Source: a virus. Taken from it: DNA of 41,357 bases. The notes below the pieces were generated by a model, which was given only the letters and a program-made list of their open reading frames with translations, did not search any database and was not told where the DNA came from. The DNA lies in IMG/VR virus record IMGVR_UViG_3300020470_000045, positions 1 through 41,357 of that record; one strand, given 5' to 3'. Both the position numbers and the translations under genes were made by a program. Shown here piece after piece: positions 2,197 to 18,384 of this stretch. Every line of letters begins with the position of its first letter. Position 1 is the stretch's first letter.

Positions 2197-2292
2197 CCTA
2201 AGTCTCTACCTAAGTCCTCTCATCAGTTTAACTGTTGATAGTTTATTGTATTCTTATCGTAGTTGTATTTAGCTTGAGACCTAAGTTCTCTC
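2197..2292. repeat. Three CCTAAGT direct repeats
   Basis: CCTAAGTCTCTA (2197-2208) is followed directly by CCTAAGTCCTCTC (2209-2221), and a third copy CCTAAGTTCTCTC lies at 2280-2292. The first two are spaced by 12 bp, about one helical turn. Such iterated short sites are typical of regulator binding sites, integrase arm sites or replication initiator sites; nothing here decides between these. I did not see further copies in the other intergenic regions. Confidence 0.4.
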
Positions 2293-2408
2293 TTAAGGGT
2301 AGACAAAGTTAAATCTAATAATTATATAGTTAAGCTGGGGTTAGGCTAGTGGAAGAGATATTCGCCAATCTATTTAATTAGGTTACTCTCAGCGATGCCT
2401 GTCATTAG

Positions 2409-2414: not shown

Positions 2415-2421
2415 CCTTTGC

Positions 2422-2511
2422 AGTGGGGTGGCTGAGTGGTTTAAAGCAACGGATTGCTAATTCGTCATACTGGCAACAGTATCGTGGGTTCAAATCCCAT
2501 CCCCACTGCCA
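2422..2511 (+). tRNA. tRNA-Ser (anticodon GCU), CCA encoded
   Basis: A complete type II tRNA folds on the plus strand. The acceptor stem AGTGGGG pairs perfectly with CCCCACT; the discriminator is G and CCA is encoded. The anticodon arm ACGGA-TTGCTAA-TTCGT gives anticodon GCU, reading AGC/AGU serine codons. A long variable arm has a 6-bp stem (ATACTG/CAGTAT) around GCAA, and the T arm is GTGGG-TTCAAAT-CCCAT. It is the only convincing intact gene on the plus strand, opposite to all protein genes, and lies in the control region between the reductase and the tail genes. A second, incomplete tRNA-Ser(GCU)-like sequence lies near the integrase at 15671-15714. Confidence 0.95.
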
Positions 2512-2520
2512 TCACTACAA

Positions 2521-2534
2521 AAAAAACACCGATC
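2521..2534. repeat. 14-bp element shared by both control regions (copy 1)
   Basis: AAAAAACACCGATC on the plus strand is identical to 17906-17919. On the minus strand it reads GATCGGTGTTTTTT, a short element ending in a T run, without an obvious hairpin here. It resembles loosely the ATCTGTT-type class II pause/termination signal known for T7 RNA polymerase. That comparison is inference. Confidence 0.4.
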
Positions 2535-2562
2535 TAAGAGTCACCAGACACATATAAATACA

Positions 2563-2588
2563 CTCTGAGCTACCTTAGTAGCCCAGAG
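2563..2588 (-). terminator. Strong hairpin after the reductase gene
   Basis: On the minus strand CTCTGGGCTAC-TAAG-GTAGCTCAGAG forms an 11-bp stem with one G-U pair and a 4-nt loop, 33 nt after the reductase stop codon. The following sequence is T-rich (TGTATTTATATG) but has no clean U tract. It could be a terminator, a processing site or a stabilising hairpin at the end of the replication transcript. Confidence 0.45.
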
Positions 2589-2620
2589 ATGTCTTCATGC
2601 CTCTGACGAGTCTTATATCG

Positions 2621-5392: not shown

Positions 5393-5759
5393 CGCTATAT
5401 ACCTCTAACTGTTCCATGGCACTTATGCCTTTTGGTGTAATGAACCATTTATTGCCCCATACCTCAGAATTCTTTTTAGTTGTTATCCATCCTTCAGATG
5501 CACACAGCCCAATGTAATCTGCATGGTATCTAGCAAACCTACTTTTAGTCATGTAAGGGTGCTTATGTGTCCGATCTAAAGTTGCCCAGATATCTCTGAG
5601 TGTCTGTACTACTGGATCATCAGGATCAAACTCAGGGTCAAACTTAATGTGTGTTTGCCCAGTTTGTTCCGATTTTAAATTCGGCTTCGATTGGGATTTC
5701 TGTAATGTTGAAATCTTCTCCTGTTTTTTTAGCCATTCTTGAAGTGATATCACCGACAT
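5385..5759 (-). CDS. Unknown protein with possible winged-helix C-terminus, overlapping the DNA polymerase gene
   Basis: The better start is ATG at 5759 (GGAG nine nt upstream), giving 124 residues. I do not recognise a family. Residues about 45-120 (VVQTLRDIWATLDRTH, then SRFARYHADYIGLCASEGWI and KWFITPKGISAMEQL) look like a small winged-helix fold, where a Gly-Trp-Ile turn is followed by a beta wing. The first 116 bp overlap the 3' end of the DNA polymerase in another frame, an unusually long overlap. Placement between polymerase and exonuclease suggests a DNA metabolism or regulatory job; this is inference. Confidence 0.7.
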   Translation of the reverse strand: MSVISLQEWLKKQEKISTLQKSQSKPNLKSEQTGQTHIKFDPEFDPDDPVVQTLRDIWATLDRTHKHPYMTKSRFARYHADYIGLCASEGWITTKKNSEVWGNKWFITPKGISAMEQLEVYSDD

Positions 5760-7404
5760 GATCAGCATCTCCTTTTTTTACTGCTATTTGGACTTCGTCA
5801 TGTACCCATGCAATTATCTTGGCATCTAAATTCTGCCTTCTAATTTCGTGGTCTATGTTGAGTATCCATTGTTTGCAAATAAGAGCTGCACATGATTGCA
5901 GTAAAGTATTAAAACTTTTATGCCGACTTCTTATTTTTAATTTTCTTTTATCAAGCCCAAGGATGTATCCTTTGTTGCTTGCCTGTTCTAAATTATCTTT
6001 AAGCTGTTTAAATGATGGGTTAGCTTTATAAAAGTTGTCTTTAAGCTCTTTGCCTTTTTTAGCATTAGAGCCAGCTATTTTACCTATCATTAAATCACCA
6101 CCACCATAAATCAGTGCAAATATAAATGTCTTAGCTTGGTCTCGTGTTTCTAAGCCAGCATCATTCTGGTTCTTAGTATGTATGTCTCCATTAAGAATTT
6201 CTTTTGCATATGCCCCTTTGTCGTAGGCAGATAAATAGTAAGCTAATGATCTAAGCTCAATTCCAGATAAGTCTGAGCCAACCAATTCATAACCAGTTGG
6301 AACAGTAAATAGTTCTCTACACTCTTTGCCAAACTCAGCTCTAACAGCTGGTACTTGGGCTAAGTTAGGGTATCGATGAGTTGCTCTACCTGTAACAGCT
6401 CCATTAGATATTATTGAATGGTGTAGCTGTCCATTATCTTTGACGAGCTTAAGCCAAGCTGCATTACCTTCAGCTAACATTCCAATTCTTTTATTTAGCA
6501 TGAACATCCTTGCCAGCTTTTTAGCCTCAGGATATGGAAGAGCAGCTAGGATGGTCTCGTCAATTTGAGCATCTCCAGATGGTGTCATCTTCTTTGGTTT
6601 CCACCTGTATTTCTTTTCTAAACAAAACTGGATATGCTTTCTGGAGTTAGGGTTAAATTCTACAACCTTGACTTTATTAAAAGGCTCACCCTTCTTATAT
6701 CCAAGTTTTTTATTATTAACTTTAGGAATAAACTCTGTAACTATTTCCCATGGTTCAAATAAAGTTTGCAGCTCACCTTCTAAAGTTGCTCTCTCCTGAG
6801 CTAACTTTGCATAGAGATGGCTGGCTTTAGTAATGTCAAATGTCCATCCAGCATTACCGATCCTGTCACATAATTCTGCAACCTGATGCTCAAACTTTAT
6901 AGCTTGCTGTGAATACTTTTCTGGAGCTAATCGCTTCCATAGAGCATGAGTAACTTCAACGTCTTGCTTACAATACTCCAGCATCTCCTCAGAGAATTCT
7001 TCCCAGCCACCATCATAGTCACCTTTATGATTTCCTAATCTTAAGCCCCAAGCCTTAAGGGAATGAGACCCATAAAGTTTTTTAGGTAAACTGACCGAGG
7101 TGTCAAAGTCAGTGTTGACTAAGTCAGCCTCGATCAATCTGGAGATAACCAAAGTATCAGTTACTTTGCCTTTGGGAGAAAAGTTAGGATAAACTTTTTG
7201 TATGGCTGGAAGGTCAAAACCTATTATGTTGTGACCTATAATTTCATCTGCATTTTCTAATACACTTAAAATATTATTAAATGATTTGTGCTTAGAGCTA
7301 CTAAAATAAAGCATATCATTATCGATATCTTTAATTACAATGCAGTGAATTTTATCTAGAGTATCTAACAAGCCGTTGGTTTCAATATCAAAAACCAATC
7401 TCAT
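5644..7404 (-). CDS. T7-like family A DNA polymerase
   Basis: This 586-residue replicative polymerase has an N-terminal 3'-5' exonuclease (D6/E8 in VFDIETNGLL, D64 in GFDLPA, D148 in YCKQDVE). The polymerase domain shows VTGRATHRYPNLAQVPA, motif A GSDLSGIELR (D378), motif B with R421, K425, F429 and Y433, and motif C WVHDEV (H535-D536). It ends IGTNWANTH, like the T7 gp5 C-terminus. It is about 118 residues shorter than T7 gp5; the segment between LFEPW and FNPNSR, where T7 carries its thioredoxin-binding loop, is only about 35 residues. Motif B has Phe429 where T7 has Tyr526. It lies in the replication operon after the primase-helicase. Confidence 0.96.
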   Translation of the reverse strand: MRLVFDIETNGLLDTLDKIHCIVIKDIDNDMLYFSSSKHKSFNNILSVLENADEIIGHNIIGFDLPAIQKVYPNFSPKGKVTDTLVISRLIEADLVNTDFDTSVSLPKKLYGSHSLKAWGLRLGNHKGDYDGGWEEFSEEMLEYCKQDVEVTHALWKRLAPEKYSQQAIKFEHQVAELCDRIGNAGWTFDITKASHLYAKLAQERATLEGELQTLFEPWEIVTEFIPKVNNKKLGYKKGEPFNKVKVVEFNPNSRKHIQFCLEKKYRWKPKKMTPSGDAQIDETILAALPYPEAKKLARMFMLNKRIGMLAEGNAAWLKLVKDNGQLHHSIISNGAVTGRATHRYPNLAQVPAVRAEFGKECRELFTVPTGYELVGSDLSGIELRSLAYYLSAYDKGAYAKEILNGDIHTKNQNDAGLETRDQAKTFIFALIYGGGDLMIGKIAGSNAKKGKELKDNFYKANPSFKQLKDNLEQASNKGYILGLDKRKLKIRSRHKSFNTLLQSCAALICKQWILNIDHEIRRQNLDAKIIAWVHDEVQIAVKKGDADHVGDITSRMAKKTGEDFNITEIPIEAEFKIGTNWANTH

Positions 7405-7410
7405 AGGCTG

Positions 7411-7623
7411 TTAGGTTGCACTTAATTGATGTGGAATTTTTACACAAAGACTATACCCATTTAAATATTGTGGGTCTTGTTGTATTTTCATTTTTGCATG
7501 AGCTGTGTACTGCTCACACTTTGCTTGACTAGTAAATGGAAAGTTTACCATTGGGAAATTTACCCAGACACCATTTCCACCTAAATTCCAAGCAACAACA
7601 ATTACTGGTATCCACATTGTCAT
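7411..7623 (-). CDS. Small secreted or membrane-anchored unknown protein
   Basis: A 70-residue unknown protein. The N-terminus (MTMWIPVIVVAWNLGG) is hydrophobic and could be a signal anchor; two cysteines lie in the remainder (C33, C60), which suits an exported domain with a disulfide. Its ATG overlaps the TGA of the upstream gene (ATGA). It shares general architecture with the 60-residue protein encoded at 21286-21468 (hydrophobic start, short Cys-containing tail). Function is unknown. Confidence 0.65.
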   Translation of the reverse strand: MTMWIPVIVVAWNLGGNGVWVNFPMVNFPFTSQAKCEQYTAHAKMKIQQDPQYLNGYSLCVKIPHQLSAT

Positions 7624-7889
7624 TTTGCATTCTCCTTTAGTTTTTTTAATTTAGCTTTAAGCAATATTTTCTCTTTATTCTTTTGATAGTATTCTTTAGC
7701 TCTTTGAGAATTATATTCCTTACGAATTTTATAGTAGTTATGCCCACCACCAAGACCTTGGCTACTTTCATAGTCAATCACCTGATCTAATACTGATGCC
7801 TGACTATATGAATGTTCTCTAGTCTTAGGGTAATATCTTCCAACCTTATCCCAGCTATCAGCTCTGGGATCGTCTTCAAATTTATCCAT
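7620..7889 (-). CDS. Unknown basic protein in the replication operon
   Basis: An 89-residue protein that I do not recognise. The N-terminal half is acidic and Tyr/Ser rich; the C-terminal half is strongly basic and helical (EYYQKNKEKILLKAKLKKLK), as often seen in small nucleic-acid-binding proteins. AAGGAGAG lies 7 nt before the ATG. It sits between primase-helicase and a small membrane protein and overlaps the latter by 4 bp. A DNA- or RNA-binding role is only inference from charge. Confidence 0.65.
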   Translation of the reverse strand: MDKFEDDPRADSWDKVGRYYPKTREHSYSQASVLDQVIDYESSQGLGGGHNYYKIRKEYNSQRAKEYYQKNKEKILLKAKLKKLKENAK

Positions 7890-7904
7890 GTCAACTCTCC
7901 TTAG

Positions 7905-9482
7905 TTAAAAATTAATAAGCTGGTCTGTAAGTCTTCCTTTATCAATGTCGTAATTAACTGAACCAGCAAAACCTGTTTCACCAGTAAATCGATTTTTTAA
8001 AACATGAAGATGCCTGATATTTCCATCAGGTGCTTCAGCATCAACTTGTAATGTTATGCAGATGTCAGAAAGCTGAGCAATGGCATGAGATCCTCTAAGC
8101 TGTCCAAGACGTACCTTTGCACCATCTTCATGTCCTTTGTCTCCCTCTGGTCTTCTCAGATGGCTGACAATTATTAAGCCAATTTCTAACTCTTGAACTA
8201 GTGTCCTGAGTTTAGTCATTGCCATGTCTATTAACTTACGTTCATCACCAGTTGCTAACCCAGATATTAAAATACTAATGTGATCTAAAATGATCCATTT
8301 AATATCCAGAGCTTTTGCCATGTAAGTTATTTTGTTACAGATCAGGTCAACATCAGTTGAACCAAAATGATCATAAAGATAAACCTGTTTATCCATGTTA
8401 GGAAAAAGCTCACCAAATGCCTGATCGATTTCTTCATCAGTTGCCAGTGACCTATCAACACAAATGTTTTTAGAAAGATGAATTCCAATTAAACCCAGCA
8501 AGGTTCTCTTGTTACTTTCTTCCAACATAATCATGCCGATCTTTTCACCAGCCTGATGAAGGTGGTATGCAATCTCTCTAACTAAAGTTGATTTGCCGAT
8601 ACCAGAGCCAGCCGTAATAGTGACCAACTCTTTCCTGAGACCCTTTGTAACCTGTGTAAGTTTCTCGTAAGGATAAGCAATGGATGAAGCAGCATCATCC
8701 ACACTAATACTCGCTCTGATATCGTTAGCTGCTATAATTCCGTCTGGTCTGTAAGCTCTTGCTTGAAAGATTGCAGTGATAACCTCGTCTGCCTTATTCT
8801 TAAGAAGACATTCATTGGCATCTTTCATGGGAAGTCTAGCAATCTTAGCTTTACCTACAGGTAATAGCTCGGCTATTTCCTGAGCAGCTTGCTGTCCCTG
8901 AGTGTCCATATCTAGCATCAAGATAATTTCACCAAACTGGTTAACGTAGTCCCAGTTATTTTGGATCGCTCTCTTAGCAGCTGCTGCACCATTCGGAAGT
9001 GAAACTGTAGCCCACTTATGGTTTTGAATTTGTGAAACTGTCATGGCATCAATCTCACCTTCGGTAATCACAAGTTTCTTTCCTGTGTTCCAAAGATGTT
9101 GCCCAAACAGCTGTAGCTTATTAGTGTCACCAATAATACTAAACTTCTTATCTGGTGTCCTAATTTTATATGCAACAACAGCCCCAGCTTTATTTCTGTA
9201 AGCTGCCATTTCATTTTTATTTATGGCTGTAAGGTAACCAAACTTACGGCAAGTCTCTTCACTTATGCCCCTATGTCTAAGCCCTTTAACCTCTCCCTTC
9301 GGTAATGCTTTTTTGAAGGTTTTATCCTTTTTCGATATTTCAGTGAGCTTAACTCTCTTTTCATTGGGTTTCGGTTTATAGGTTTTACAGGAGAAACAAA
9401 ACGAACTTTTGTCATCATAAACTCCATTTGCATCTGAGCTGCCACACTCTGGGCAAGGCTCATGCCTAATAAAATTACTCAT
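7905..9482 (-). CDS. T7 gp4-like primase-helicase
   Basis: A 525-residue bifunctional protein. The N-terminal zinc finger has C10, C13, C29 and C32 (CPECGSSDANG, FCFSC). A TOPRIM primase domain follows, with EGEIDAM at 141-147 and the LMLDMDTQGQ motif with D191/D193. The C-terminal RecA-like helicase has the Walker A AGSGIGKST at 291-299 (K297), IILDHISIL as the Walker B region and VSHLRRPEGDKGHEDG further on. In T7 this hexamer unwinds the fork and makes primers for gp5. Length is close to T7 gp4 (566). It lies just downstream of tRNA-His, with GGAGAG upstream of the ATG. Confidence 0.95.
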   Translation of the reverse strand: MSNFIRHEPCPECGSSDANGVYDDKSSFCFSCKTYKPKPNEKRVKLTEISKKDKTFKKALPKGEVKGLRHRGISEETCRKFGYLTAINKNEMAAYRNKAGAVVAYKIRTPDKKFSIIGDTNKLQLFGQHLWNTGKKLVITEGEIDAMTVSQIQNHKWATVSLPNGAAAAKRAIQNNWDYVNQFGEIILMLDMDTQGQQAAQEIAELLPVGKAKIARLPMKDANECLLKNKADEVITAIFQARAYRPDGIIAANDIRASISVDDAASSIAYPYEKLTQVTKGLRKELVTITAGSGIGKSTLVREIAYHLHQAGEKIGMIMLEESNKRTLLGLIGIHLSKNICVDRSLATDEEIDQAFGELFPNMDKQVYLYDHFGSTDVDLICNKITYMAKALDIKWIILDHISILISGLATGDERKLIDMAMTKLRTLVQELEIGLIIVSHLRRPEGDKGHEDGAKVRLGQLRGSHAIAQLSDICITLQVDAEAPDGNIRHLHVLKNRFTGETGFAGSVNYDIDKGRLTDQLINF

Positions 9483-9500
9483 AGTCTCTCCTGTATAATT

Positions 9501-9576
9501 TGGGGTGAGTAATGGGAATTGAACCCATATCTACAGGATCACAACCTGTCGATCTTACCTTTGATCTATACTCACC
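9501..9576 (-). tRNA. tRNA-His (anticodon GUG), with G-1 and CCA encoded
   Basis: The minus strand folds into a complete cloverleaf. The acceptor GTGAGTA pairs perfectly with TACTCAC, flanked by the extra G-1 opposite C73 that identifies tRNA-His, and CCA is encoded. The D stem is GATC/GATC, the anticodon arm ACAGG-TTGTGAT-CCTGT, and the T arm ATGGG-TTCAATT-CCCAT. It lies inside the replication operon: its 5' end is one base after the stop codon of the helix-turn-helix gene, and its 3' end is 18 bp before the primase start. It must therefore be cut out of the polycistronic message. Confidence 0.95.
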
Positions 9577-9577
9577 A

Positions 9578-9859
9578 TTAAGTCATTGAAAATAGGTCTC
9601 CAGAATATATTTCCTTACCAACCTGTTCATTGGCATCTTCACCAAGAAAATGATATCTCATGTAACGATGCCCAGTATGGTCTTTCTTAAATTCTTTTCT
9701 TATTGCAAGACCACCTCGAATTAGTTTTGACATCACACATGGAAGATCAACAATTCGATATAAATTTAAAGCCTCTAAACCACTAATGTTACCTACATCT
9801 TTTAAATGCTCAGTTACTAGTTGTAGTTGTGTCGGCTTTTTTCTTTTTGTCATATTCAT
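9578..9859 (-). CDS. Helix-turn-helix protein
   Basis: A 93-residue protein whose middle part resembles the phage HTH_39-type winged helix (PF14090): QLQLVTEHLKDVGNISGLEA, then LYRIVDLPCVMSKLIRGGL and a basic wing ending in RYMRYHFL. It probably binds DNA, as a regulator or a replication accessory. GGGGAGAGTAAAAAGCT precedes the ATG. It overlaps the 3' end of the endonuclease gene by 50 bp and its stop codon abuts tRNA-His. It is the only obvious candidate transcription regulator besides the RNA polymerase; that role is inference. Confidence 0.7.
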   Translation of the reverse strand: MNMTKRKKPTQLQLVTEHLKDVGNISGLEALNLYRIVDLPCVMSKLIRGGLAIRKEFKKDHTGHRYMRYHFLGEDANEQVGKEIYSGDLFSMT

Positions 9860-10283
9860 AGCTTTTTACTCTCCCCTCTAATAGCCATTCTATAGGGATC
9901 ATTTTATGAGCATATTTAAACCCATGCCTTTCACAGTACATGGCATATGTTGTTTTTGATCCTTTATAGAGTTTGTTATTGACACTTTGAAAAACAAAAC
10001 GAATGTCGATGTCTGGAAACTGCTCCTTAATTAATAGGTGCTTATGCCTGTCTTCAGTAAGCCATCGACCTTTCGTTTCAACATAAAAAAAGCCACCCTT
10101 TTTAGGCAGCTTGAAATCTGGTGTATACTTAGCTTGTCGAGCTGGCTGGGTATAGGTAATCTTTTCTTGTTCGTAGATCACATCGTACCCAGCTTCTTTT
10201 ATTTGTTTAGCTATCTTATCTTCTAAGCCTGATCTATACCCTCTAGAAATTATACTTTGGGCTATTCGCTGGATCACTAGCAT
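9810..10283 (-). CDS. T7 endonuclease I-like Holliday junction resolvase
   Basis: A 157-residue protein closely patterned on T7 gp3. The catalytic residues are all visible: E21 in YRSGLEDKIAKQI, D56 in YTPDFKLP, and E69 with K71 in YVETKGRW. The HLLIKEQFPDIDIRFVFQ segment and the LYKGSKTTYAMYCERHGF segment also match. In T7 it resolves branched replication DNA and helps to break down the host chromosome. It overlaps the end of the SSB gene by 41 bp and the start of the helix-turn-helix gene by 50 bp. Confidence 0.93.
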   Translation of the reverse strand: MLVIQRIAQSIISRGYRSGLEDKIAKQIKEAGYDVIYEQEKITYTQPARQAKYTPDFKLPKKGGFFYVETKGRWLTEDRHKHLLIKEQFPDIDIRFVFQSVNNKLYKGSKTTYAMYCERHGFKYAHKMIPIEWLLEGRVKSYEYDKKKKADTTTTSN

Positions 10284-10803
10284 CCTCAGCTGCTAAAACA
10301 ATTTCATCCTGTTCAGCTATAAAGCCATCTTTCTCTTCACCAAATGTAATGCCATCGTCAGCATCACCACCAACTGGGTTGATGATTTGAACTTTAGTAA
10401 GATGCAAAGTAACACCAATATTACCAGCTGTGGAATATGGTGAAACATAGCCAGCTAATTTTAATGTTGATCCACCCCATAATTTAGGAACGTCACCAGC
10501 AATAATATTACCTGTAGCATCACAGAACTTTGGAGCAAACTTTGACTTTGTCACAATAATTGTGTGTCCAGTTTCCTCATCTATTTTAAATGGCATTCTG
10601 GCATTCTTAGCCTTATCCTTGCCAAATTCATCTACAGCTACTTTATTGACAGCTGCTTTGATCTCTTTAGTTTGATCAGTAGGGACAATAAGATTGCATT
10701 TATAAACACCATCAGGATCGAACTGAGTATCTGGTTTGTTCAACCATGGGTATTGGGCTATCCCTTTGTGAGTTATGAATATCGTCTTCTGTTTCGTTGA
10801 CAT
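10243..10803 (-). CDS. T7 gp2.5-like single-stranded DNA-binding protein
   Basis: The ATG at 10803 follows AAGGAG by 9 nt, so I prefer it to the upstream TTG; it gives 186 residues. The N-terminal OB-fold part shows KTIFITHKGIAQYPWLNKPD and GVYKCNLIVP, and the later WGGSTLKLAGYVSPYSTAG matches the T7 gp2.5 family. The C-terminus is acidic (EEKDGFIAEQDEIVLAAEDA) and ends in Phe, as in T7, where this tail contacts the polymerase and helicase. Its first 92 bp overlap the preceding small gene. Confidence 0.88.
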   Translation of the reverse strand: MSTKQKTIFITHKGIAQYPWLNKPDTQFDPDGVYKCNLIVPTDQTKEIKAAVNKVAVDEFGKDKAKNARMPFKIDEETGHTIIVTKSKFAPKFCDATGNIIAGDVPKLWGGSTLKLAGYVSPYSTAGNIGVTLHLTKVQIINPVGGDADDGITFGEEKDGFIAEQDEIVLAAEDASDPANSPKYNF

Positions 10804-10969
10804 ATTCAAATTCTCCTTCTTCTGTTAAATTGATTAAGTTTGTATTTTCACCTAGAACTTCTAGAGATATGCCTAAACTGTCAGCCTCAGCTAACAAGTC
10901 TAAGGGTATGGGCTGGTTTTGTTGACGAAACAACTTAGCCTTGCCCAAGACTTTCTCTCTTGGATGCAT
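10712..10969 (-). CDS. Unknown 85-residue protein upstream of SSB
   Basis: I do not recognise this protein. It begins MHPREKVLGKAKLFRQQNQP, has an amphipathic helix and an acidic middle (TEEGEFEYVNETEDD). CGGAG stands 8 nt before the ATG. It is the first gene after the terminator that follows the RNA polymerase gene, so it opens the replication transcript. Its 3' end overlaps the SSB gene by 92 bp in another frame. The long overlap lowers confidence in the C-terminal part but both starts have good ribosome sites. Confidence 0.6.
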   Translation of the reverse strand: MHPREKVLGKAKLFRQQNQPIPLDLLAEADSLGISLEVLGENTNLINLTEEGEFEYVNETEDDIHNSQRDSPIPMVEQTRYSVRS

Positions 10970-10991
10970 TGTCTTTACTCCGATTTAAATT

Positions 10992-11058
10992 AAAAAAATG
11001 TGTGGGATGGGAGAGTAGTGGTTAATTACTACTCAATTACCTTGGACAACCACCCCAC
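10992..11058 (-). terminator. Large branched intrinsic terminator after the RNA polymerase gene
   Basis: On the minus strand GTGGGGTGG pairs with CCATCCCAC (9 bp, one G-T) and closes an inner hairpin GAGTAGT/ACTACTC (7 bp). The base stem is followed by ACATTTTTTT. It begins 12 nt after the RNA polymerase stop codon. It would stop early transcription by host polymerase, the role of the early terminator in T7. Confidence 0.8.
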
Positions 11059-11070
11059 TAGTTAACCTGA

Positions 11071-13572
11071 TCAGGCAAAGCAGTAGTCGCTTTTTAATAC
11101 ACCCTTCAAGTCTAGGTCTCCTTTTATAGGAAAGCTGGGTAAATCCAGCTCATCTACATTGTCGAGGTCTCTGACTACAAAATCATATATCGATTTATAT
11201 AAATCAAATCCCTCATACATTTCCACAAAAGCCTCTCTAACCACCTTTGCCATTTTATGTGACATTGCTGGTATTGTTGCAAAGCTGTCGTGGATCAGGA
11301 AGAAATCCTTTATGTTATTCTCAAGTCCTTTAAGAACAGTTAAAAGCAAGTGAGCTGCATCCATCGAATGAATGATGTTTGGAGCTATTGCTGATTTGCT
11401 CTTAGACTTTTTGATTAACTTACTTGGTTTCACCCTGAGTGTGACCTGAGTTCTGGTCAACACATTTGCTACCCTGTCATGCAAGAATATTTTAATCTTC
11501 TTAGTATCCCAATCAGAATACTTATGCAAAACAGGAAAGCCCACTGGGGTAAGCCATCTTACTGGTTTACCTTGGTGAGCTGCTAGTCCAGCTAAAGATT
11601 TAAAGAAAGCCATACCAGCTGATGCACCTTGGATAACTTCATTAATAGCTATCCAGTTTTTATCAGCTAAATAATTAGAGGCTTTAAAACCTTCATCTTG
11701 ACCAAATGGATGTGACTTTAGTTCACCAGTTAAAACTTGATCTGAAAGCCCTCGCATAGTGTCTTCCATAATCTGGTTTTTGAAACCAAACTTCTCACTG
11801 GAATAACCATATGTCATTGTATTTCTTTTCACGATTTTTCTGGTAATACCAAAATCAATCCATTGTTCAGCCAATGGACATCCGTTTGAACTGTCCTTTG
11901 AGACACTTGCAAGCACCTTATCGGCTACTGCCTGATAGATGTCTTGAGGTTTATCTGACGGAACTAAGTTAACGAGATGTCCATCGGCTTTACTTCTAGA
12001 TGCTGCACTATAATGCTGCACTCCTGAGTTTGAGCCATCTTGGGCTAGAGGTAATGAACATTCATAATCAATACCATTCTGGAGATATCCTACATATTCG
12101 TGACAAGCTGCTAGAAACTGAAATGGCTTATCAGCAGTTGACCAAATATGATAGCTATCTTCAAAGTTAGTACCAACATCAATAATAAGTTGTTCATTAT
12201 CAACAACCCACCTAAGACGATCTTCATTGCTCTTTTTAGAACATTTATCAAAGTCACCAGTTGTAGCTACATGAAGAGCTAAACGGCTTGCTCCTGAGTG
12301 ACCTAACTTTTGCTTATTAGCTAGGTTAAACATTGCTTTGATATGATCATCTCTATGATGACTAAAATGTGGGACAGGATAAACTCTACCTCTAAAATCA
12401 AAATTGTGAGGTAACCAGAATTTATCGTAAGTTTGAAGCTCATGGGCAGTTGCTAAATCCTGAGACATGACAGCTCTTAGTCCATCAATTTCTCTGTTTT
12501 TAATAACTACTTTTCTAGCTCCAATAGTCCAACCTTTTTTCTCGGCTCTAGATAGTTCATCCCAATCTTTAGGCTTAACCTTTTTATTTACATGGGCTTT
12601 TCTTGGAAACTTACCAAATGATTTGTTTTCTTTCCAAGCCCACTCAACAGCACTAACAATATAGTCGTTGATGTTGAAGGCTGTCCTTTGAATGGCATTT
12701 AAAGCATAAATAGCTGGCATAATAGTTCTATCTTTAAACCCAGCATCTATAGCTTTCTTATGTCCCATATCAGGCGATCTAACCAGAGTAACTTCAGAGG
12801 CTAATGCTGGCTCTAAATAACACCCAGTGTCATAAGATGTCCAATCCTTAGGCTCTACTACCATTGGTTGGAACATAGGCTCTTTCCAGCTTGCCATAAA
12901 ATCTAACTCAGAGAGTTTTTCACTAGCTGCCTCAGTAAGCCCAACCCTACGAACAATTCTATTATTCTTTTTAGGTTGTTCCCAAATGTCAAATATACCT
13001 GACACTTTTAAAACAGCATTAAAAACAGGAGCTGCTACTTGAACTCTTCGCTCCTCTTTCCAAGCATCGACTTTATAACCTTCTTTAGAGGCTATGTTCT
13101 TAACTGCTTTTTCTCTGTATCTTTCAGAAGAATGATCTTTGGTTACTTTGTCCTCAAGTCTCTTAGCGAGTTTACTATTGTATTCCCTGAGACCTTTAGA
13201 CCAATGTTCCATCTCTATTCTTTTACCAATTTTGACAAGAACTTTAGTAAAGTCATACTTAAGACCAACTCCATCCATGGTAGTTGTTAACCCAATATAG
13301 CTTAGTAAATCGACATCTATATCTTTTAAATCTTTATACCAAAGACAAACTCTAGTTGATTTAGTATTTTCTTTGTCAGCCTCTTTATTAAGAACTTTGG
13401 TTATTTCCTCAGACACTCTATGTAAACTTTCGCTCACTAAAGTATGAGGGTTATTTTGTGTTGAAGTTGAATTAAGTTTTTCTTGTCTCTTTAAAAAACG
13501 ATCTCGACCATCTGAGACCATTTTCTTTTCTCTAGAAATTTCATCTAGTACATTAGTCTGTTGAATAGACAT
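11071..13572 (-). CDS. T7-type single-subunit DNA-directed RNA polymerase
   Basis: The start is set at ATG 13572 because AAAGGAG lies 8 nt upstream; this gives 833 residues (T7: 883). Conserved parts in order are FDFRGRVYPVPHF, the catalytic Asp in LAQDGSNSGVQHYSA (D512), the O-helix VKRNTMTYGYSSEKFGF with K582 and Y590, the promoter specificity region after KPVRWLTPVGFPVL, the APNIIHSMDAAHL motif, the second catalytic Asp in IHDSFATIP (D762), and a C-terminus ending YCFA, like the FAFA foot of T7. It transcribes the middle and late genes from phage promoters. It is flanked by an intrinsic terminator on each side of its unit, separating it from the integrase and from the replication genes. 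Confidence 0.96.
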   Translation of the reverse strand: MSIQQTNVLDEISREKKMVSDGRDRFLKRQEKLNSTSTQNNPHTLVSESLHRVSEEITKVLNKEADKENTKSTRVCLWYKDLKDIDVDLLSYIGLTTTMDGVGLKYDFTKVLVKIGKRIEMEHWSKGLREYNSKLAKRLEDKVTKDHSSERYREKAVKNIASKEGYKVDAWKEERRVQVAAPVFNAVLKVSGIFDIWEQPKKNNRIVRRVGLTEAASEKLSELDFMASWKEPMFQPMVVEPKDWTSYDTGCYLEPALASEVTLVRSPDMGHKKAIDAGFKDRTIMPAIYALNAIQRTAFNINDYIVSAVEWAWKENKSFGKFPRKAHVNKKVKPKDWDELSRAEKKGWTIGARKVVIKNREIDGLRAVMSQDLATAHELQTYDKFWLPHNFDFRGRVYPVPHFSHHRDDHIKAMFNLANKQKLGHSGASRLALHVATTGDFDKCSKKSNEDRLRWVVDNEQLIIDVGTNFEDSYHIWSTADKPFQFLAACHEYVGYLQNGIDYECSLPLAQDGSNSGVQHYSAASRSKADGHLVNLVPSDKPQDIYQAVADKVLASVSKDSSNGCPLAEQWIDFGITRKIVKRNTMTYGYSSEKFGFKNQIMEDTMRGLSDQVLTGELKSHPFGQDEGFKASNYLADKNWIAINEVIQGASAGMAFFKSLAGLAAHQGKPVRWLTPVGFPVLHKYSDWDTKKIKIFLHDRVANVLTRTQVTLRVKPSKLIKKSKSKSAIAPNIIHSMDAAHLLLTVLKGLENNIKDFFLIHDSFATIPAMSHKMAKVVREAFVEMYEGFDLYKSIYDFVVRDLDNVDELDLPSFPIKGDLDLKGVLKSDYCFA

Positions 13573-13930
13573 GGGCATTACTCCTTTCACCCTGTTGGCT
13601 TAGGGTGGACATTGTTGGAAGTTGTAGAGTTTCTGCGAATGTCTTGAGTAATGTTGTTATATAAAATTTAAACTTTCTTTGTAGTACATTAATTTTAGAA
13701 TTAGTTCCTACATTAGGTGGAGCATTAATTGGATTTCTGAAAGTGCCAGATTGTAAAGCATCAGTTGTTCCACTTTCTTCTCTTGGGTTCATACCCAACC
13801 CATCTCTGCTTACCGACTTTTTTTGTCCATTCCAATATTCAATTTGACTATTCAAAGTTATATTAATGATTACGTCATTAACCATGAACCTTGAAACTCT
13901 ATTAATAAAGTTTTTCTTGTTGTGTAACAT
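13553..13930 (-). CDS. Unknown protein upstream of the RNA polymerase
   Basis: A 125-residue protein with a strong ribosome site (AAGGAG, 9 nt before ATG) right after the integrase terminator. It is rich in Asn, Thr and Ser with no recognisable domain, membrane segment or signal peptide; it ends with a Gln/Ser-rich tail. Its last 20 bp overlap the RNA polymerase start, so the two are probably translationally coupled. Its place as first gene of the polymerase unit is like that of small early host-takeover proteins, but no function can be assigned. Confidence 0.55.
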   Translation of the reverse strand: MLHNKKNFINRVSRFMVNDVIINITLNSQIEYWNGQKKSVSRDGLGMNPREESGTTDALQSGTFRNPINAPPNVGTNSKINVLQRKFKFYITTLLKTFAETLQLPTMSTLSQQGERSNAHVYSTD

Positions 13931-13966
13931 TTTTCAATCTCCTTAATTTTGTTACGTTATAAAGTT

Positions 13967-13993
13967 AAAAAAAGAGTACCATTACAGTACTCT
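13967..13993 (-). terminator. Intrinsic terminator after the integrase
   Basis: Minus-strand AGAGTAC-TGTAATG-GTACTCT forms a perfect 7-bp stem followed by TTTTTT. It starts about ten bases after the integrase stop codon and closes the integrase transcription unit, leaving the RNA polymerase unit to its own signals or to read-through. Confidence 0.85.
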
Positions 13994-14002
13994 CAAGTTT
14001 AA

Positions 14003-14830
14003 TTACAATGCAAGGTTTTCTACTATATCTAGTAGTGCATCTTTATTTTCATGTACATATTTAGCTGTTGTCGCTTGTGACCTATGTCCCAGTATCTTGC
14101 CAATTATAAGGGTATTGACCTTATGTTCATTAGCCATTCTGGATGCACAGGTATGTCTGCAAATATGAAACACAAAATTAGGATCGCCCTTAGCGAATCG
14201 ATCACGAGCCTCATGCCAGAGGTCATAGAACTTGTGGTGGTTGTACACCGACTTAACTCTTCCTAACCTCTGAAGGGCTTCTAAAGCCTTTCTATTGAGG
14301 GGTACATCCCTAGCATCACCATTCTTGGTCTTAGGTAGATGTAGGAACTTTTTACTAGATGATATAAAGGCTGTGTCTCCAGCTTGCAAAATTTCACCTA
14401 GTCTCATTCCAGTATTGAGACCAACAGTAAAAATATCAGCAACCCAAGTTTCACCACTGTTATTAAAAAACCAATAAAGATTTTCGATTTCTTTATCAGT
14501 GAAATATCTGGGTCTTTCTGACTTAACTTTCTTCCAGTTAAAGTCTGGGGCATGGCTAATTAATTCTTCCTTTACACCATGCTTAAATACAGAAGATAAA
14601 GCAGCTGCATAACGATTTACAGTGCTTAAAGATAGACCTAAGTCATCTTCCAAGAAATTAAAAAAGACATGAATTTGTCTTGGCTTAAAACTGTCTAATG
14701 GCTTGTCACCATATTTCTGGAATTCAAAAAACTTCTGCATCTTTGACATACTTTCAGCGATGTGTCTGTCAGAAGAACCTTCCCATATGTTCCTCTTTTC
14801 GGCATGAGTGAATTCTCTAATAGTTTCCAT
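14003..14830 (-). CDS. int: Tyrosine recombinase (phage integrase)
   Basis: A 275-residue integrase. The N-terminal SAM-like core-binding domain spans about 20-95 (SFKPRQIHVFFNFLEDD, SLSTVNRYAAALSSVFKHG). The catalytic domain has R143 (TGMRLGEI), K167/K169 (PKTKNGDARDVPL), H222 and R225 (HICRHTCASR), H249 (LGHRSQATTAKY) and the nucleophile Y258. All active-site residues are present, so it should be functional. There is no clear arm-binding domain at the extreme N-terminus. It is last in a unit with its own promoter (15756-15785), a tRNA-Ser-like core (15671-15714) and a terminator (13967-13993). Integrases of marine T7-like phages commonly target tRNA genes. Confidence 0.95.
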   Translation of the reverse strand: METIREFTHAEKRNIWEGSSDRHIAESMSKMQKFFEFQKYGDKPLDSFKPRQIHVFFNFLEDDLGLSLSTVNRYAAALSSVFKHGVKEELISHAPDFNWKKVKSERPRYFTDKEIENLYWFFNNSGETWVADIFTVGLNTGMRLGEILQAGDTAFISSSKKFLHLPKTKNGDARDVPLNRKALEALQRLGRVKSVYNHHKFYDLWHEARDRFAKGDPNFVFHICRHTCASRMANEHKVNTLIIGKILGHRSQATTAKYVHENKDALLDIVENLAL

Positions 14831-14835
14831 TTTAG

Positions 14836-15219
14836 TTACTCTCCTTTCCTTGCTTGAATTCTTTTACAAAAAGTTAAAACGTCACAACCAAAGTTGGCTG
14901 CATTGTCATACGATGGTTTTTTATCAAGGTAATAAAACTCGTAATGAGAAAGTATTTTCATAGCAAAGTCATAAGCTGTTTCTACCTCAGTAAACATTTT
15001 AACGTCATCCTTGTTGTAGTTAGCTAAGTCTTCCTTGCGAGATTTAACTTCACTTTCAGCCCAAGTATTACCAGCAGCAATACTAGGCTGACCTTGCTTA
15101 CCAGTGAGGGCATAAAGTTTGCCCTCTTCTGGTTTACCTCTGGTATTAGTTTCATAATACTCACCCTTGCGAATATGCTCAGGCAGTGGTTTATTTTTAG
15201 GTGAAATAATTGGGTTCAT
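14836..15219 (-). CDS. Unknown protein in the integrase unit
   Basis: A 127-residue protein that I cannot place in a family. It begins MNPIISPKNKPLPEHIRKGE, has a middle helix (TEVETAYDFAMKILSHYEFY) and ends RKGE, where GGA GAG is also the Shine-Dalgarno for the integrase. Its ATG overlaps the TAA of the preceding gene (TAATG). A link with integration or excision is possible by position but nothing in the sequence shows it. Confidence 0.65.
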   Translation of the reverse strand: MNPIISPKNKPLPEHIRKGEYYETNTRGKPEEGKLYALTGKQGQPSIAAGNTWAESEVKSRKEDLANYNKDDVKMFTEVETAYDFAMKILSHYEFYYLDKKPSYDNAANFGCDVLTFCKRIQARKGE

Positions 15220-15623
15220 TATCTGCTCTCCACTTCATAAAATTTGCCGTTAGACTTTATTGTCTTTTTGACAGTTGTAAGTACTGGAATTTTAGAACCC
15301 CTCTTTAAAACCTTGGGTCTATCGATCCAGTTAGTTTTACCGAACCTGAGACCAGCTCTGATCTCTCTGTCAGTATAAAAGTATTCACTCAGGGAAAGTT
15401 TCTTCCTGAGCTTACCAAATGTGTTGTGACCTAGCTCAATCATTGCAATGCAATCAAAGGCTACTTTCATTTTGAAACTGTTAGTAAGGCTACGTTTTTT
15501 CTTATCACCAAAAACGTATTTAGTTTCAGTTTTAACAGCTCTAGGCTGTGCTAAATTTGACCTTCCATTTTTAGATCGTTTAAGAAAGTCTGGTATAGTT
15601 AAATCTATTTCAATACTGGTCAT
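15219..15623 (-). CDS. Unknown basic protein, first gene of the integrase unit
   Basis: A 134-residue basic protein, with many Lys/Arg in TKYVFGDKKKRSLTNSFKMK. The central part (FDCIAMIELGHNTFGKLRKK, LSLSEYFYTDREIRAGLRFG) reads like a small helix-turn-helix, so DNA binding is plausible. AAGGAG lies 8 nt before the ATG. It is directly downstream of the tRNA-Ser-like core, so it is the best candidate for an excisionase or a regulator of integration, by position only. It ends in TAATG overlap with the next gene. Confidence 0.65.
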   Translation of the reverse strand: MTSIEIDLTIPDFLKRSKNGRSNLAQPRAVKTETKYVFGDKKKRSLTNSFKMKVAFDCIAMIELGHNTFGKLRKKLSLSEYFYTDREIRAGLRFGKTNWIDRPKVLKRGSKIPVLTTVKKTIKSNGKFYEVESR

Positions 15624-15670
15624 TTTTATCTCCTTCTGTAAGTTACAGGAGACCTGACAGCGATTGATCT

Positions 15671-15714
15671 CGGATTGCTAATCCGTCAACCCGTAAAGGG
15701 TTGCGAGGGTTCAA
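15671..15714 (+). other. tRNA-Ser fragment, candidate attP core
   Basis: This 44-bp stretch has the anticodon arm CGGA-TTGCTAA-TCCG with anticodon GCT, a variable arm CAACCC-GTAAA-GGGTTG with a 6-bp stem, and the first half of a T arm, GAGGG-TTCAA. On both sides the tRNA pattern stops: no D arm or acceptor strand precedes it, and the bases after TTCAA (GTGTAGCAG) cannot close the T stem. It lies in a 164-bp intergenic gap of the integrase unit. Sequence identity between a phage and the middle or 3' part of a host tRNA is typical of tyrosine-recombinase attachment sites. It could also be a decayed tRNA gene. Confidence 0.6.
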
Positions 15715-15755
15715 GTGTAGCAGCTCCGTAATCAACCAGTGTCTGGTCTAATTTG

Positions 15756-15785
15756 ATAATTAATATTTCTACTTTTGTTTGTCAA
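15756..15785 (-). promoter_or_regulatory. Sigma70-like promoter of the integrase unit
   Basis: On the minus strand a perfect TTGACA (15780-15785) is followed after 18 bp by AATTAT (15756-15761), which matches four of six -10 bases. It begins just after the stop codon of the gene ending at 15788 and reads through the tRNA-Ser-like core into the two small genes and the integrase. The integrase unit should therefore be transcribed by host polymerase. Confidence 0.6.
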
Positions 15786-15787
15786 CC

Positions 15788-16003
15788 TTATTGCTGGTAA
15801 ACAGCTCTTTTTAAATTATAGTTACATAAGTTATAAAATCTCTTAGCTTCATCTTTAAATTCAAATAAGCCAAGTCTTTCTGGTGATCTGTAAACAGCTT
15901 GACCATTTTTATTAACTCCTGTTCTAATTTGGTAAACTGCCCATTGATCTCTTTTTTCTGGGGTATGTACTTTGTACATTTGAATTAATGGTACACTATT
16001 CAT
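15788..16003 (-). CDS. Small early protein, unknown
   Basis: I place the start at ATG 16003, preceded by AAGGAGTAACC; the in-frame ATG at 16018 lies inside the upstream gene. The 71-residue product (MNSVPLIQMYKVHTPEKRDQ onward) has alternating short strands and a basic C-terminal helix (FKDEAKRFYNLCNYNLKRAV). No family recognised. It is last in the cassette of six small early genes and its leader is a shortened copy of the repeated junction. Such genes in T7-like phages often act on host functions; this is inference. Confidence 0.65.
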   Translation of the reverse strand: MNSVPLIQMYKVHTPEKRDQWAVYQIRTGVNKNGQAVYRSPERLGLFEFKDEAKRFYNLCNYNLKRAVYQQ

Positions 16004-16005
16004 GG

Positions 16006-16320
16006 TTACTCCTTCCACCCATATTGATTATGGGTTGCTCTACGACCTTTTGCTCTATTAAATTCAGTATTGTAAGAACTCATTATTTGGTTTTCAGCTA
16101 ATGATGCACTATAGCTATCAGTGCCTGTACCAGTATACCACTTAGGATTTTTCACAAACTCATCAAAAGTTTGGAAACCCTCAACCTGTGAAAAGTTATA
16201 CATATCTGTCCAAAAACTATGATACCCACCAGTACCATGGTATGAATTTTCTTTTACAACATAATCTTTGTCGTATGCTTTAGATTTAAGTTGTTCGTAA
16301 TTTAATCTTATTCTTCGCAT
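16006..16320 (-). CDS. Small early protein, unknown
   Basis: A 104-residue protein, basic at both ends and aromatic-rich in the middle (YHGTGGYHSFWTDMYNFSQV, NPKWYTGTGTDSYSASLAEN). No signal, membrane segment or known domain. The ATG follows the full repeated leader (AAAGGAGAGTAACCA), and its last codons AAG GAG TAA form the ribosome site of the next gene. Part of the early cassette; function unknown. Confidence 0.7.
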   Translation of the reverse strand: MRRIRLNYEQLKSKAYDKDYVVKENSYHGTGGYHSFWTDMYNFSQVEGFQTFDEFVKNPKWYTGTGTDSYSASLAENQIMSSYNTEFNRAKGRRATHNQYGWKE

Positions 16321-16323
16321 TGG

Positions 16324-16611
16324 TTACTCTCCTTTAACTAGTTTTTGAATTACATTAAATCTCTTTGCTCCAGCTTTTCTTGTTCTTTGGTAAAAACAAG
16401 CATCAATCATGGTAACTCTATTACCACGAGTTCCTACATAGTAGGCTTTAGTTGTAGCTCCACCATTTTTAGTTTTTACGATTAAATATTCCCATGATAA
16501 ATTTTTAAATGGCTTGTATTCGGTGAGCTGATCTCTGTTAAATATTTTGTGTGAAAAACCATCGCCAGCTTTTTTAAATCCGTTTGCAATTTTATTTAAT
16601 AATTGTTCCAT
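16324..16611 (-). CDS. Small early protein, unknown
   Basis: A 95-residue basic protein. It starts with an amphipathic helix (MEQLLNKIANGFKKAGDGF), continues with short strands (WEYLIVKTKNGGATTKAYYV, RVTMIDACFYQRT) and ends VKGE, where the Gly-Glu-stop codons are the next gene's Shine-Dalgarno. No recognised family; the strand-rich basic character would fit a small nucleic-acid-binding fold, but this is a guess. Confidence 0.7.
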   Translation of the reverse strand: MEQLLNKIANGFKKAGDGFSHKIFNRDQLTEYKPFKNLSWEYLIVKTKNGGATTKAYYVGTRGNRVTMIDACFYQRTRKAGAKRFNVIQKLVKGE

Positions 16612-16615
16612 TTGG

Positions 16616-16822
16616 TTACTCTCCTAACTTTTGAATTTTCTGTTTTATTAAATCGTGGTCTTTATTTAGTCTTGCTAATATTTTATACATTTTATTGATA
16701 GTTTCTTTACGATCTAAACCATCTCTAATTGGTATTGTACCAGCAATTATTCCTTCAACAATTTCAATGTCTAGATTATTTTTTGTTCTATATCTTTCGT
16801 AGTCTTTTAATGTAAATCCCAT
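16616..16822 (-). CDS. Small early protein, unknown
   Basis: A 68-residue, mostly helical and highly charged protein (MGFTLKDYERYRTKNNLDIE; RKETINKMYKILARLNKDHD) ending QKLGE-stop. No family recognised. It is preceded by a GC-rich hairpin at 16840-16856 and by the repeated leader. In this copy of the leader the TAA is not needed to end the upstream gene, whose stop lies about 30 bp earlier. Confidence 0.7.
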   Translation of the reverse strand: MGFTLKDYERYRTKNNLDIEIVEGIIAGTIPIRDGLDRKETINKMYKILARLNKDHDLIKQKIQKLGE

Positions 16823-16839
16823 CGGTTACTCTCCTTTGT

Positions 16840-16865
16840 GGGGGCTTGATGCCCCCTTTTGTTTT
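16840..16865 (+). terminator. Hairpin with U tract on the plus strand, between early genes
   Basis: GGGGGC-TTGAT-GCCCCC is a perfect 6-bp GC stem followed on the plus strand by TTTTGTTTTT, a textbook intrinsic terminator for plus-strand transcription. No plus-strand gene lies nearby. On the minus strand the same hairpin sits just upstream of the ribosome site of the gene starting at 16822, without a T tract, so there it may be a processing or translation-control element. Confidence 0.6.
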
Positions 16866-17266
16866 TATTTATGATATCCTAATTCTTTTGATTGGTACGA
16901 AACTGTGTCATCCCATAATTCCCATAAATCTCCGATATTCTTTTCAAGATTATTATATGGAATGCCTCTTTTCGCTTTTATGTCCCATCTCCACATTGTG
17001 GAATAAAGACACTTACCAATCACCTGACCTTTTCTCTTTTCAATATGACCAGATGATGAATAACGAGTAGGATGATATCCACCAGCTACTACCTTACACC
17101 AGCTTACAACACCCTGAGGCTTGCCAGCATTCTTACCTTTTTTAGCAACTGGTAACTTATCAACCTCTTCCTGACCAAACCACTTAACGGCTAGGTCATA
17201 TCCAAAGTCATCTGAAAGATAAGCTCTTCGAGTTTGGTATTCTGCTTGTTGTCCAAAATGTCCCAT
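16865..17266 (-). CDS. Small early protein, unknown
   Basis: A 133-residue protein, the largest of the early cassette. It has an N-terminal helical part (YLSDDFGYDLAVKWFGQEEV), then a Gly/Lys-rich section with two Cys (VVSWCKVVAGGYHPTRYSS, GKCLYSTMWRWD) and an aromatic C-terminus. I do not recognise the family. The ATG follows AAAAGGAGAGTAACCA. As second gene of the early cassette it is a candidate host-takeover protein by position only. Confidence 0.7.
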   Translation of the reverse strand: MGHFGQQAEYQTRRAYLSDDFGYDLAVKWFGQEEVDKLPVAKKGKNAGKPQGVVSWCKVVAGGYHPTRYSSSGHIEKRKGQVIGKCLYSTMWRWDIKAKRGIPYNNLEKNIGDLWELWDDTVSYQSKELGYHK

Positions 17267-17269
17267 TGG

Positions 17270-17500
17270 TTACTCTCCTTTTAATTCATTTATTATATTT
17301 TGCTGCACACCTAAATATGAACCTTGTGTATTTCTTAGTTCCTCAACTTGATCTTTAAGTGTCATAAGTTTTTCGACTTTTTTAATATGAGGTCTAAGAT
17401 CAGCATCGTCATCAATTCTAATTTCTTCATTCATTTGTGCTTTGATTTCATCTATTTGATTATCGATTACGTCAATGATGTCTAAGTTATATGTAGTCAT
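17270..17500 (-). CDS. First early gene, small acidic helical protein
   Basis: A 76-residue acidic protein with long helices (IIDVIDNQIDEIKAQMNEEI; KKVEKLMTLKDQVEELRN), likely a coiled coil. It ends ELKGE-stop, which doubles as the Shine-Dalgarno of the following gene. It is the first gene after the 425-bp control region and should be among the first phage proteins made. No family recognised. Confidence 0.7.
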   Translation of the reverse strand: MTTYNLDIIDVIDNQIDEIKAQMNEEIRIDDDADLRPHIKKVEKLMTLKDQVEELRNTQGSYLGVQQNIINELKGE

Positions 17501-17783
17501 AGGTTACTCTCCAGTTTCTATGGTTGGTTAAAAAAATTGGAACATCAGATTGTCCGATGCACAAATTTCGCTAACCAGAAAAATATAAAGGGTCTCAGCT
17601 AATTGGTTTGGATCATGTTTACTACCAACTTCTATTTCATAGTGTTTTGGGAGACTTTGGGAAGTTTTTGATCAAGTAGGGAGTATACTCTTGCCACTCG
17701 AAGCTATTTAAATGAGAACCTCTAAACTCATTCGGTGATTTTCATGTTTTTTTTAAATTCTCCTATGTTTCTCTCTTACACTA

Positions 17784-17814
17784 TATATATGGGTATTGTT
17801 GCAACGGATTTCAA
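17784..17814 (-). promoter_or_regulatory. Possible early sigma70 promoter
   Basis: On the minus strand TTGAAA (17809-17814) is followed by an AT-alternating box, TATATA (17784-17789, 19-bp spacer) or CATATA (17786-17791, 17-bp spacer). Position about 280 bp upstream of the first early gene is suitable, but the AT-rich context makes chance matches likely. Confidence 0.35.
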
Positions 17815-17905
17815 GGTTTTAAAGTAAAATATTTCAGAATATTTAAAAAAAGTGCTTTATGTCTCGTCAGAAATTTGACACATAGTTAACTTATTGAATA
17901 AATTG

Positions 17906-17919
17906 AAAAAACACCGATC
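17906..17919. repeat. 14-bp element shared by both control regions (copy 2)
   Basis: AAAAAACACCGATC, identical to 2521-2534. On the minus strand it reads GATCGGTGTTTTTT directly after the stop codon of the last lysis gene. CACTGG 25 bases upstream could pair weakly with the CGGTG, so it may end the late transcript. In both places it marks the end of a long gene block. Confidence 0.45.
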
Positions 17920-17925
17920 CTGATT

Positions 17926-18384
17926 TTAGATAATTCCCAGTGAGAATAGAGAAAGCAAGAGAATCACCATAACAAATGCAATTATCAGTATAATTATTGA
18001 TCCGATTGCAATGTTTTCTTGGATTTTAGCTCTTCTTGCTTCAGCCTTTTTAGCTCTAGCTGCTTTATTTTTACGTTGTTGAGTTCGTATTGATACTATG
18101 TCATTCCAAGCATTTAAATCGCCAGTAGTAGCTATAATCATGTTTTTAAGCTCTTGTTCTTGCTCCCTGATCCTCTTAACTGTCTGCCAAGTGTCCAGAG
18201 CCTCTTCTAGCTCCCCTACAGCTCCTCTTCTTGATCTCTCGGCTCGATGCTTACTTTCAGCCTGTTCAACTAAGCCAGCCCAAGCCGAGATTTTATTTAC
18301 GATGTTGTGAACTTCAGCCCCATTTCCAAGTGCAGTTTTTACAACCTGATAAGCACCATTTAGGGCTGCAAGCTCAGCTAACAT
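17926..18384 (-). CDS. Tail-anchored membrane protein of the lysis cassette
   Basis: A 152-residue protein beginning MLAELAALNGAYQVVKTALG, a start seen in a protein family found beside holins in marine phages. The middle is a charged coiled coil (LDTWQTVKRIREQEQELKNM; KAARAKKAEARRAKI) and the last 25 residues are one hydrophobic segment (IIILIIAFVMVILLLSLF), so it is a C-terminally anchored inner-membrane protein. It follows the holin with adjacent or overlapping codons at 18384. A spanin-like or lysis-accessory role is inference from context and topology. Confidence 0.75.
   Translation of the reverse strand: MLAELAALNGAYQVVKTALGNGAEVHNIVNKISAWAGLVEQAESKHRAERSRRGAVGELEEALDTWQTVKRIREQEQELKNMIIATTGDLNAWNDIVSIRTQQRKNKAARAKKAEARRAKIQENIAIGSIIILIIAFVMVILLLSLFSLGII

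Follow-up and report, generated by a model that had tools for sequence, protein, structure and literature searches.

A tRNA-Ser fragment lying between a promoter-like site and a tyrosine integrase gene raises the question of whether a marine T7-like phage integrates at this point and, in that case, what integration would do to the host tRNA gene and to transcription of the integrase. An open question is how marine T7-like phages could persist as prophages when no repressor is known; for cyanophages, no stable lysogens were obtained (PMC8776855). The locus lies in a virus record of 41,357 bases, analysed here at its full length and referred to as the window. It encodes (i) a single-subunit RNA polymerase, (ii) a single-stranded DNA-binding protein, primase-helicase, DNA polymerase, exonuclease, and ribonucleotide reductase, and (iii) portal, scaffold, capsid, tail, and terminase proteins, with all these genes on the minus strand. 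The single-subunit RNA polymerase, together with the T7-like replication and structural genes, identifies a T7-like phage of the Autographiviridae type; among the named phages searched, only distant relatives and no near DNA relatives of the window were found. Read along the minus strand, the region comprises small genes, the promoter-like site (15785-15756), the tRNA fragment in antisense orientation, ORF134, ORF127, the integrase, ORF125, and the RNA polymerase, with the following features:

11071..13590, minus strand: T7-like single-subunit RNA polymerase, expected at the integrase end once integrated at attP
13553..13930, minus strand: ORF125, between the integrase and RNA polymerase genes, with a 46% homologue in L070
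14003..14830, minus strand: tyrosine integrase (Pfam E 2.4e-19)
14836..15219, minus strand: ORF127, between ORF134 and the integrase
15219..15623, minus strand: ORF134, first gene after the putative attP, with a homologue in the corresponding position of L071 (33% identity)
15636..15648, no strand assigned: palindrome CTGTAAGTTACAG, on the integrase side of the core
15671..15716, plus strand: putative attP core (46 bp; nt 27-72 in the tRNA-Ser(GCU) of SAR116), lying antisense to the integrase operon
15735..15747, no strand assigned: ACCAG-TGT-CTGGT inverted repeat, between the core and the promoter-like site
15756..15785, minus strand: promoter-like site (TTGACA-18-AATTAT), directed across the core toward ORF134, ORF127, and the integrase

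The integrase preserves the catalytic residues R143, K169, H222, R225, H249, and Y258, all six invariant in a nine-member alignment, and lies with two small genes beside the core, as an earlier sequence-only reading of this DNA had described. The inverted repeats which that reading proposed as integrase sites are indeed present on both sides of the core; no evidence for such a role was found.

The core matches the 88-nt host tRNA-Ser(GCU) gene exactly from nt 27 to nt 72; within it are the complete anticodon arm, the variable arm, and the greater part of the T arm, and the tRNA continues into neither flank. The fragment had been recognised correctly in place and on the plus strand, but its length had been given as 44 bp, whereas the exact identity extends over 46 bp. 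An exact search with a 42-bp stretch of the core across a collection of 84,980 species returned only four genome records (L032-L035), all of them SAR116 single-cell or metagenome-assembled genomes, each match sitting within an intact tRNA-Ser(GCU) as called by ARAGORN; compared with a set of 56 tRNAs, the core gave a BLAST E value of 4e-14. The search of marine alphaproteobacteria suggested in the sequence-only reading thus yielded an exact match inside the anticipated gene, and the contrary outcome it had considered, that no bacterial tRNA-Ser shares a long exact stretch with the core, is contradicted by the 46 bp in SAR116. Because the other tRNA-Ser genes found in 136 SAR116-order genomes are only ~70% identical to the core's tRNA, the host is predicted within the small SAR116 group having the matching gene; the host group of an uncultured phage can in this way be named from 46 bases. 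No lysogen or junction of the window phage was found in these 136 genomes. Among other viral contigs none carries 44 bp of the core, a 20-bp pattern matching only an already known relative, and an Rfam scan of the window disclosed two complete tRNAs as the only credible matches, the core not being reported.

SAR116 genomes also contain extra tRNA-Ser(GCU) 5′ parts (G001:C2:40329-40376, G003:C44:2912-2959, G004:C24:15794-15852 and 13992-14022), mostly comprising nt 1-48 with promoter-like DNA upstream and with the intact gene 1-3 kb away. These are probably scars of other elements using the same tRNA; as junctions of the window phage they were rejected, being 5′ halves from other elements.

Direct evidence for the place of integration comes from a relative. 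A closed genome of the SAR116 order (2,753,527 bp) contains a related prophage, G078:C1:384647-424564, bounded by 50-bp exact repeats that comprise the 5′ half of a tRNA-Lys plus 6 nt. On its minus strand the integrase and RNA polymerase come first and the lysis genes last, the prophage being colinear with the window opened at the window's attP, which indicates that the group integrates just upstream of the integrase. The host identity of the core and the att position in G078 together bear out the proposed role of the fragment as an attP core matched to the tRNA-Ser(GCU) of marine alphaproteobacteria, and on these sequence grounds 15671-15716 is almost certainly an attP core, the phage being T7-like and its predicted hosts SAR116 alphaproteobacteria. 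The order promoter, attP, integrase, RNA polymerase is not universal. The alphaproteobacterial T7-like prophage G458:C1:77633-118253 is opened between integrase and RNA polymerase at a tRNA-Leu(CAA), with the integrase beside the tRNA-Leu at one end and the RNA polymerase at the other, a topology unlike that of the window; pelagiphage-like contigs also carry a tRNA-Leu between the two genes.

The core lacks nt 1-26 and nt 73-88 of the host tRNA and, since it has neither tRNA end, both integration junctions should be broken tRNA genes. The sequence-only reading, right about the attachment site, had overlooked that neither end is restored and that a complete tRNA-Ser(GCU) is present elsewhere in the window:

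2289..2330, plus strand: possible promoter of the spare tRNA, a TCTCTTAAGGGTAGACA block identical in L071, 19 bp, and TATAGT (TATAAT in L071)
2422..2511, plus strand: complete tRNA-Ser(GCU), proposed to stand in as a spare for the host gene that integration would break

The host tRNA and the spare fold into cloverleaf-like structures and neither predicted junction does; given to ARAGORN, neither junction was called as a tRNA. One full-length tRNA-Ser(GCU) was found per genome in four SAR116 genomes, where a second copy is possible because the genomes are partial, and the closed genome of G078 has one among its recovered tRNAs. The sequences make it probable that integration breaks the host tRNA gene, which is presumably essential, and that the phage spare compensates for it. 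The anticodon stem reads ACGGA/TTCGT in the spare compared to GCGGA/TCCGT in the host gene, and differences of this kind between spares and cores may keep the spares from integrase targeting. AGC/AGU account for 37% of serine codons, a usage compatible with a translational role for the spare but not calling for one.

The relation between core and spare was followed among relatives collected through integrase similarity, in which tRNA fragments were sought upstream of the integrase. Most relatives having enough upstream sequence carry such a fragment, in those checked a half running to CCA or beginning at nt 1, and a half that reaches one end of the tRNA implies repair of the host gene at one junction. 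Truncated cores comprise, besides that of the window, (i) that of L071, a tRNA-Ser core of 25 nt in the equivalent position, this phage having a 64% identical integrase and a full tRNA-Ser(GCU), and (ii) a 30-nt tRNA-Arg(UCU) core in G139/L116, accompanied by a complete tRNA-Arg(UCU) that differs from the core in the anticodon stem. Among full-size records, a truncated core occurs with a spare of the same isoacceptor in 3/3 (window, Ser; L071, Ser; G139, Arg-UCU), and an intact repairing half occurs without any other tRNA in 14/14, namely the G078 prophage and 13 virus records with a length of 31 kb or more. The association, 3/3 vs 0/14, gives a Fisher p = 0.0015, or p = 0.008 (2/2 vs 0/14) with the window and L071 counted as one lineage, and the rule accounts for some such phages carrying exactly one particular tRNA. 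In addition, L237, L240, L255, L267, L269, and other relatives such as L274 display, in place of a half, a whole or near-whole tRNA (Met or Leu-UAA) where attP lies.

This pattern is that of the tRNA-dependent lysogeny of actinobacteriophages, where deletion has demonstrated that the phage tRNA is necessary (Guerrero-Bustamante & Hatfull 2024; PMC10865867), a need that is only predicted for the window phage. Fionnbharth, LeBron, and Gaia resemble it in having a tyrosine integrase, an attB in a host tRNA gene that is not reconstructed, and a phage tRNA of the same isotype as the target, and their sisters with a long repairing core have no tRNA, as here (PMC10865867). The common core comprises 8-17 bp in actinobacteriophages (PMC10865867) as against internal cores of 46 bp in the window, 25 in L071, and 30 in G139; a short core is a described trait of tRNA-dependent lysogeny, not part of the mechanism. 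Unlike the actinobacteriophages, the phages described here are T7-like with their own RNA polymerase, and their attP lies between promoter and integrase. Given the shared pattern, the phage is predicted to be a new member, marine and T7-like with a long internal core, which offers a partial answer to the published question of whether tRNA-dependent lysogeny extends beyond actinobacteriophages. A tRNA-dependent pattern has also been reported for two Sinorhizobium meliloti prophages similar to Mesorhizobium phage vB_MloP_Lo5R7ANS (PMC11476347, PMC12429752; NC_025431). As in the window, these are T7-like Autographiviridae, integration at the middle of a tRNA-Leu(UAG) gene disrupting it and the prophage carrying a tRNA-Leu(UAG), but the hosts are terrestrial, the isoacceptor differs, and the tRNA-Leu of Lo5R7ANS lies between integrase and RNA polymerase, whereas the window spare is ~11 kb from the integrase on the opposite strand. 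The T7-like cyanophages P-SSP7 and S-TIP37 share with the window an integrase and a tRNA-identical attP, and their integration has been shown; unlike in the window, the attP is downstream of the integrase and matches tRNA-Leu, and there are no stable lysogens (PMC8776855). Similar designs are known, and the combination in the window appears to extend them to a large marine group.

Two alternatives concern the fragment and the tRNA themselves. The fragment might not be an attP at all: it could be what remains of a decayed tRNA gene of the phage, or a regulatory element resembling a tRNA and situated among early genes. Such a reading is in keeping with the absence of integration of the window phage in the 136 genomes and with an integrase-side flank that starts GGAG, like the host tRNA. 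Nevertheless, a decayed 5′ tRNA half on that side was rejected as not significant (p 0.28 against shuffles, 0.06 against genome windows), the corresponding alignment on the integrase side of the L071 core being only suggestive. The exact host identity over 46 bp with abrupt ends, and the homologous position that serves as att in G078 and holds different tRNA halves in relatives, further argue against this view, which we regard as highly improbable. A less remote, though still unlikely, alternative accepts the core as attP and assigns the phage tRNA-Ser to lytic translation or to the replacement of tRNAs cleaved by host defence, with integration transient or lethal and never leading to stable lysogens. 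The presence of a tRNA-His in the same phage fits this account, as do the integration of T7-like cyanophages without stable lysogeny (PMC8776855) and the lack of a lysogen among the SAR116-order genomes; on the other hand, the match between truncated core and spare isoacceptor recurs in an independent lineage (Arg-UCU, G139), the 14 relatives with a repairing half have no tRNA at all, and G078 is a stable T7-like prophage.

The sigma70-like promoter of the sequence-only reading holds in sequence and position, but not in significance when taken alone: the window contains 13 such sites within 5 kb vs 16.8 expected by chance, and in a 150-bp shuffle test the site gave p = 0.27, which alone is not beyond chance. 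Relatives, however, are enriched at the same place. When 150-bp stretches from 42 non-redundant loci whose attP precedes the integrase were compared with dinucleotide shuffles, promoter-like sites at p<=0.05 occurred in 15/42 upstream of the core vs 2/42 beside the integrase, ~2 being the number expected (binomial P = 8e-10, loci with shared ancestry being treated as independent); L229 and L231 display a perfect consensus, TTGACA-18-TATAAT, upstream of attP. The order promoter, attP, (small genes), integrase, RNA polymerase is recurrent in relatives, and with this order integration should separate the promoter from the integrase and RNA polymerase genes, a topology that we consider very likely. 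The core position and the gene order in G078 accordingly support the claim that integration puts promoter and integrase at opposite ends of the prophage. In ICEclc, Pcirc, the promoter that serves the integrase in the circular form, lies across the element from the integrase once integration has occurred, a likeness to the arrangement that the core position implies for the window; ICEclc is a conjugative element (PMC2892462 and references therein) and not a phage, and no phage RNA polymerase is cut off along with its integrase.

The claim that integration thereby switches the integrase off is upheld as to the separation but not as to silencing, as host promoters could read toward the integrase. 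In G078 and sense-oriented relatives the host tRNA promoter would do so after integration, and the host sequence downstream of the SAR116 tRNA-Ser contains antisense promoter-like sites of 7.4-8.9 bits vs 8.4 bits for that of the phage. The chances that integrase and RNA polymerase are silent in a lysogen seem about evenly balanced, and it is doubtful that no repressor is involved. In the corresponding alternative, attP is as described, the integrase is under a conventional repressor (MarR-like or ORF134), and the promoter separation is incidental. MarR-like winged-helix genes lie between integrase and RNA polymerase in L116, L238, L258, and L117, and ORF134 may conceivably be a winged-helix DNA-binding protein, its predicted structure (pLDDT 62) having a winged-helix-like order of elements and giving no significant fold match against the PDB; the MarR-like genes of these relatives, possibly together with ORF134, suggest protein regulators as well. 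LUZ100 and other temperate T7-like phages, for which MarR control has been proposed, resemble the window in an integrase upstream of the RNA polymerase and a tRNA beside the integrase, and in LUZ100 a host promoter precedes the lysogeny genes, the phage being described without attP or spare-tRNA analysis (PMC10134795). The window, on the other hand, contains no significant match to regulator families, and the promoter before attP recurs in relatives. We give repressor control with incidental separation somewhat less than an even chance; it is compatible with the preferred explanation and not exclusive of it.

That explanation, combining attP, tRNA-dependent lysogeny, and promoter separation, is likely as a whole, as far as the sequences can tell. 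The tyrosine integrase would recombine the attP core with the tRNA-Ser(GCU) gene of the host, the probable crossover point being the anticodon arm, leaving two broken tRNA genes as junctions, and the phage tRNA-Ser(GCU), with its own promoter-like site, would replace the lost function. Opening of the genome would separate the upstream promoter, which would come to lie at one end with the early genes, from the integrase and T7-like RNA polymerase at the other end, so that the host-polymerase promoter would no longer read into these two genes. We infer that the window phage integrates, that its spare is expressed and needed, and that integrase and RNA polymerase fall silent in the lysogen. A more far-reaching version, in which integration itself is the lysogeny switch of a large marine T7-like group, the opening at an attP that follows the early host-type promoter disconnecting integrase and RNA polymerase and ending lytic transcription with no repressor, while the cell is rescued by a tRNA half that repairs the gene or by a spare tRNA (the latter in at least two lineages), is tentative and rather unlikely to hold in full. 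The layout nonetheless offers a testable answer to how such phages might become prophages, the integrase and phage RNA polymerase being moved off their start signal by integration.

Besides these elements, several relatives (L229, L234, L238, L250, L267, and others) display a conserved GTGTCCACCC after a terminator-like GATCGGTGTTTTTT and before the promoter preceding attP; the GTGTCCACCC block is perhaps a phage RNA polymerase promoter or a genome end. A tRNA-His(GUG) is found at 9501-9575 of the window and 12838-12911 of L071, with no att role seen. Comparison of L071 1-21453 with window 1905-17926 discloses that in L071 the entire block of early genes up to ribonucleotide reductase is inverted relative to the structural genes, possibly an assembly error; despite the inversion the tRNA-Ser remains beside the tail gene. 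Upstream of the early genes, a noncoding block of ~100 bp (window 17632-17732, L071 4717-4820) is 89% identical, the proteins near it being much less alike between the two phages, and this block is perhaps a promoter or packaging signal.
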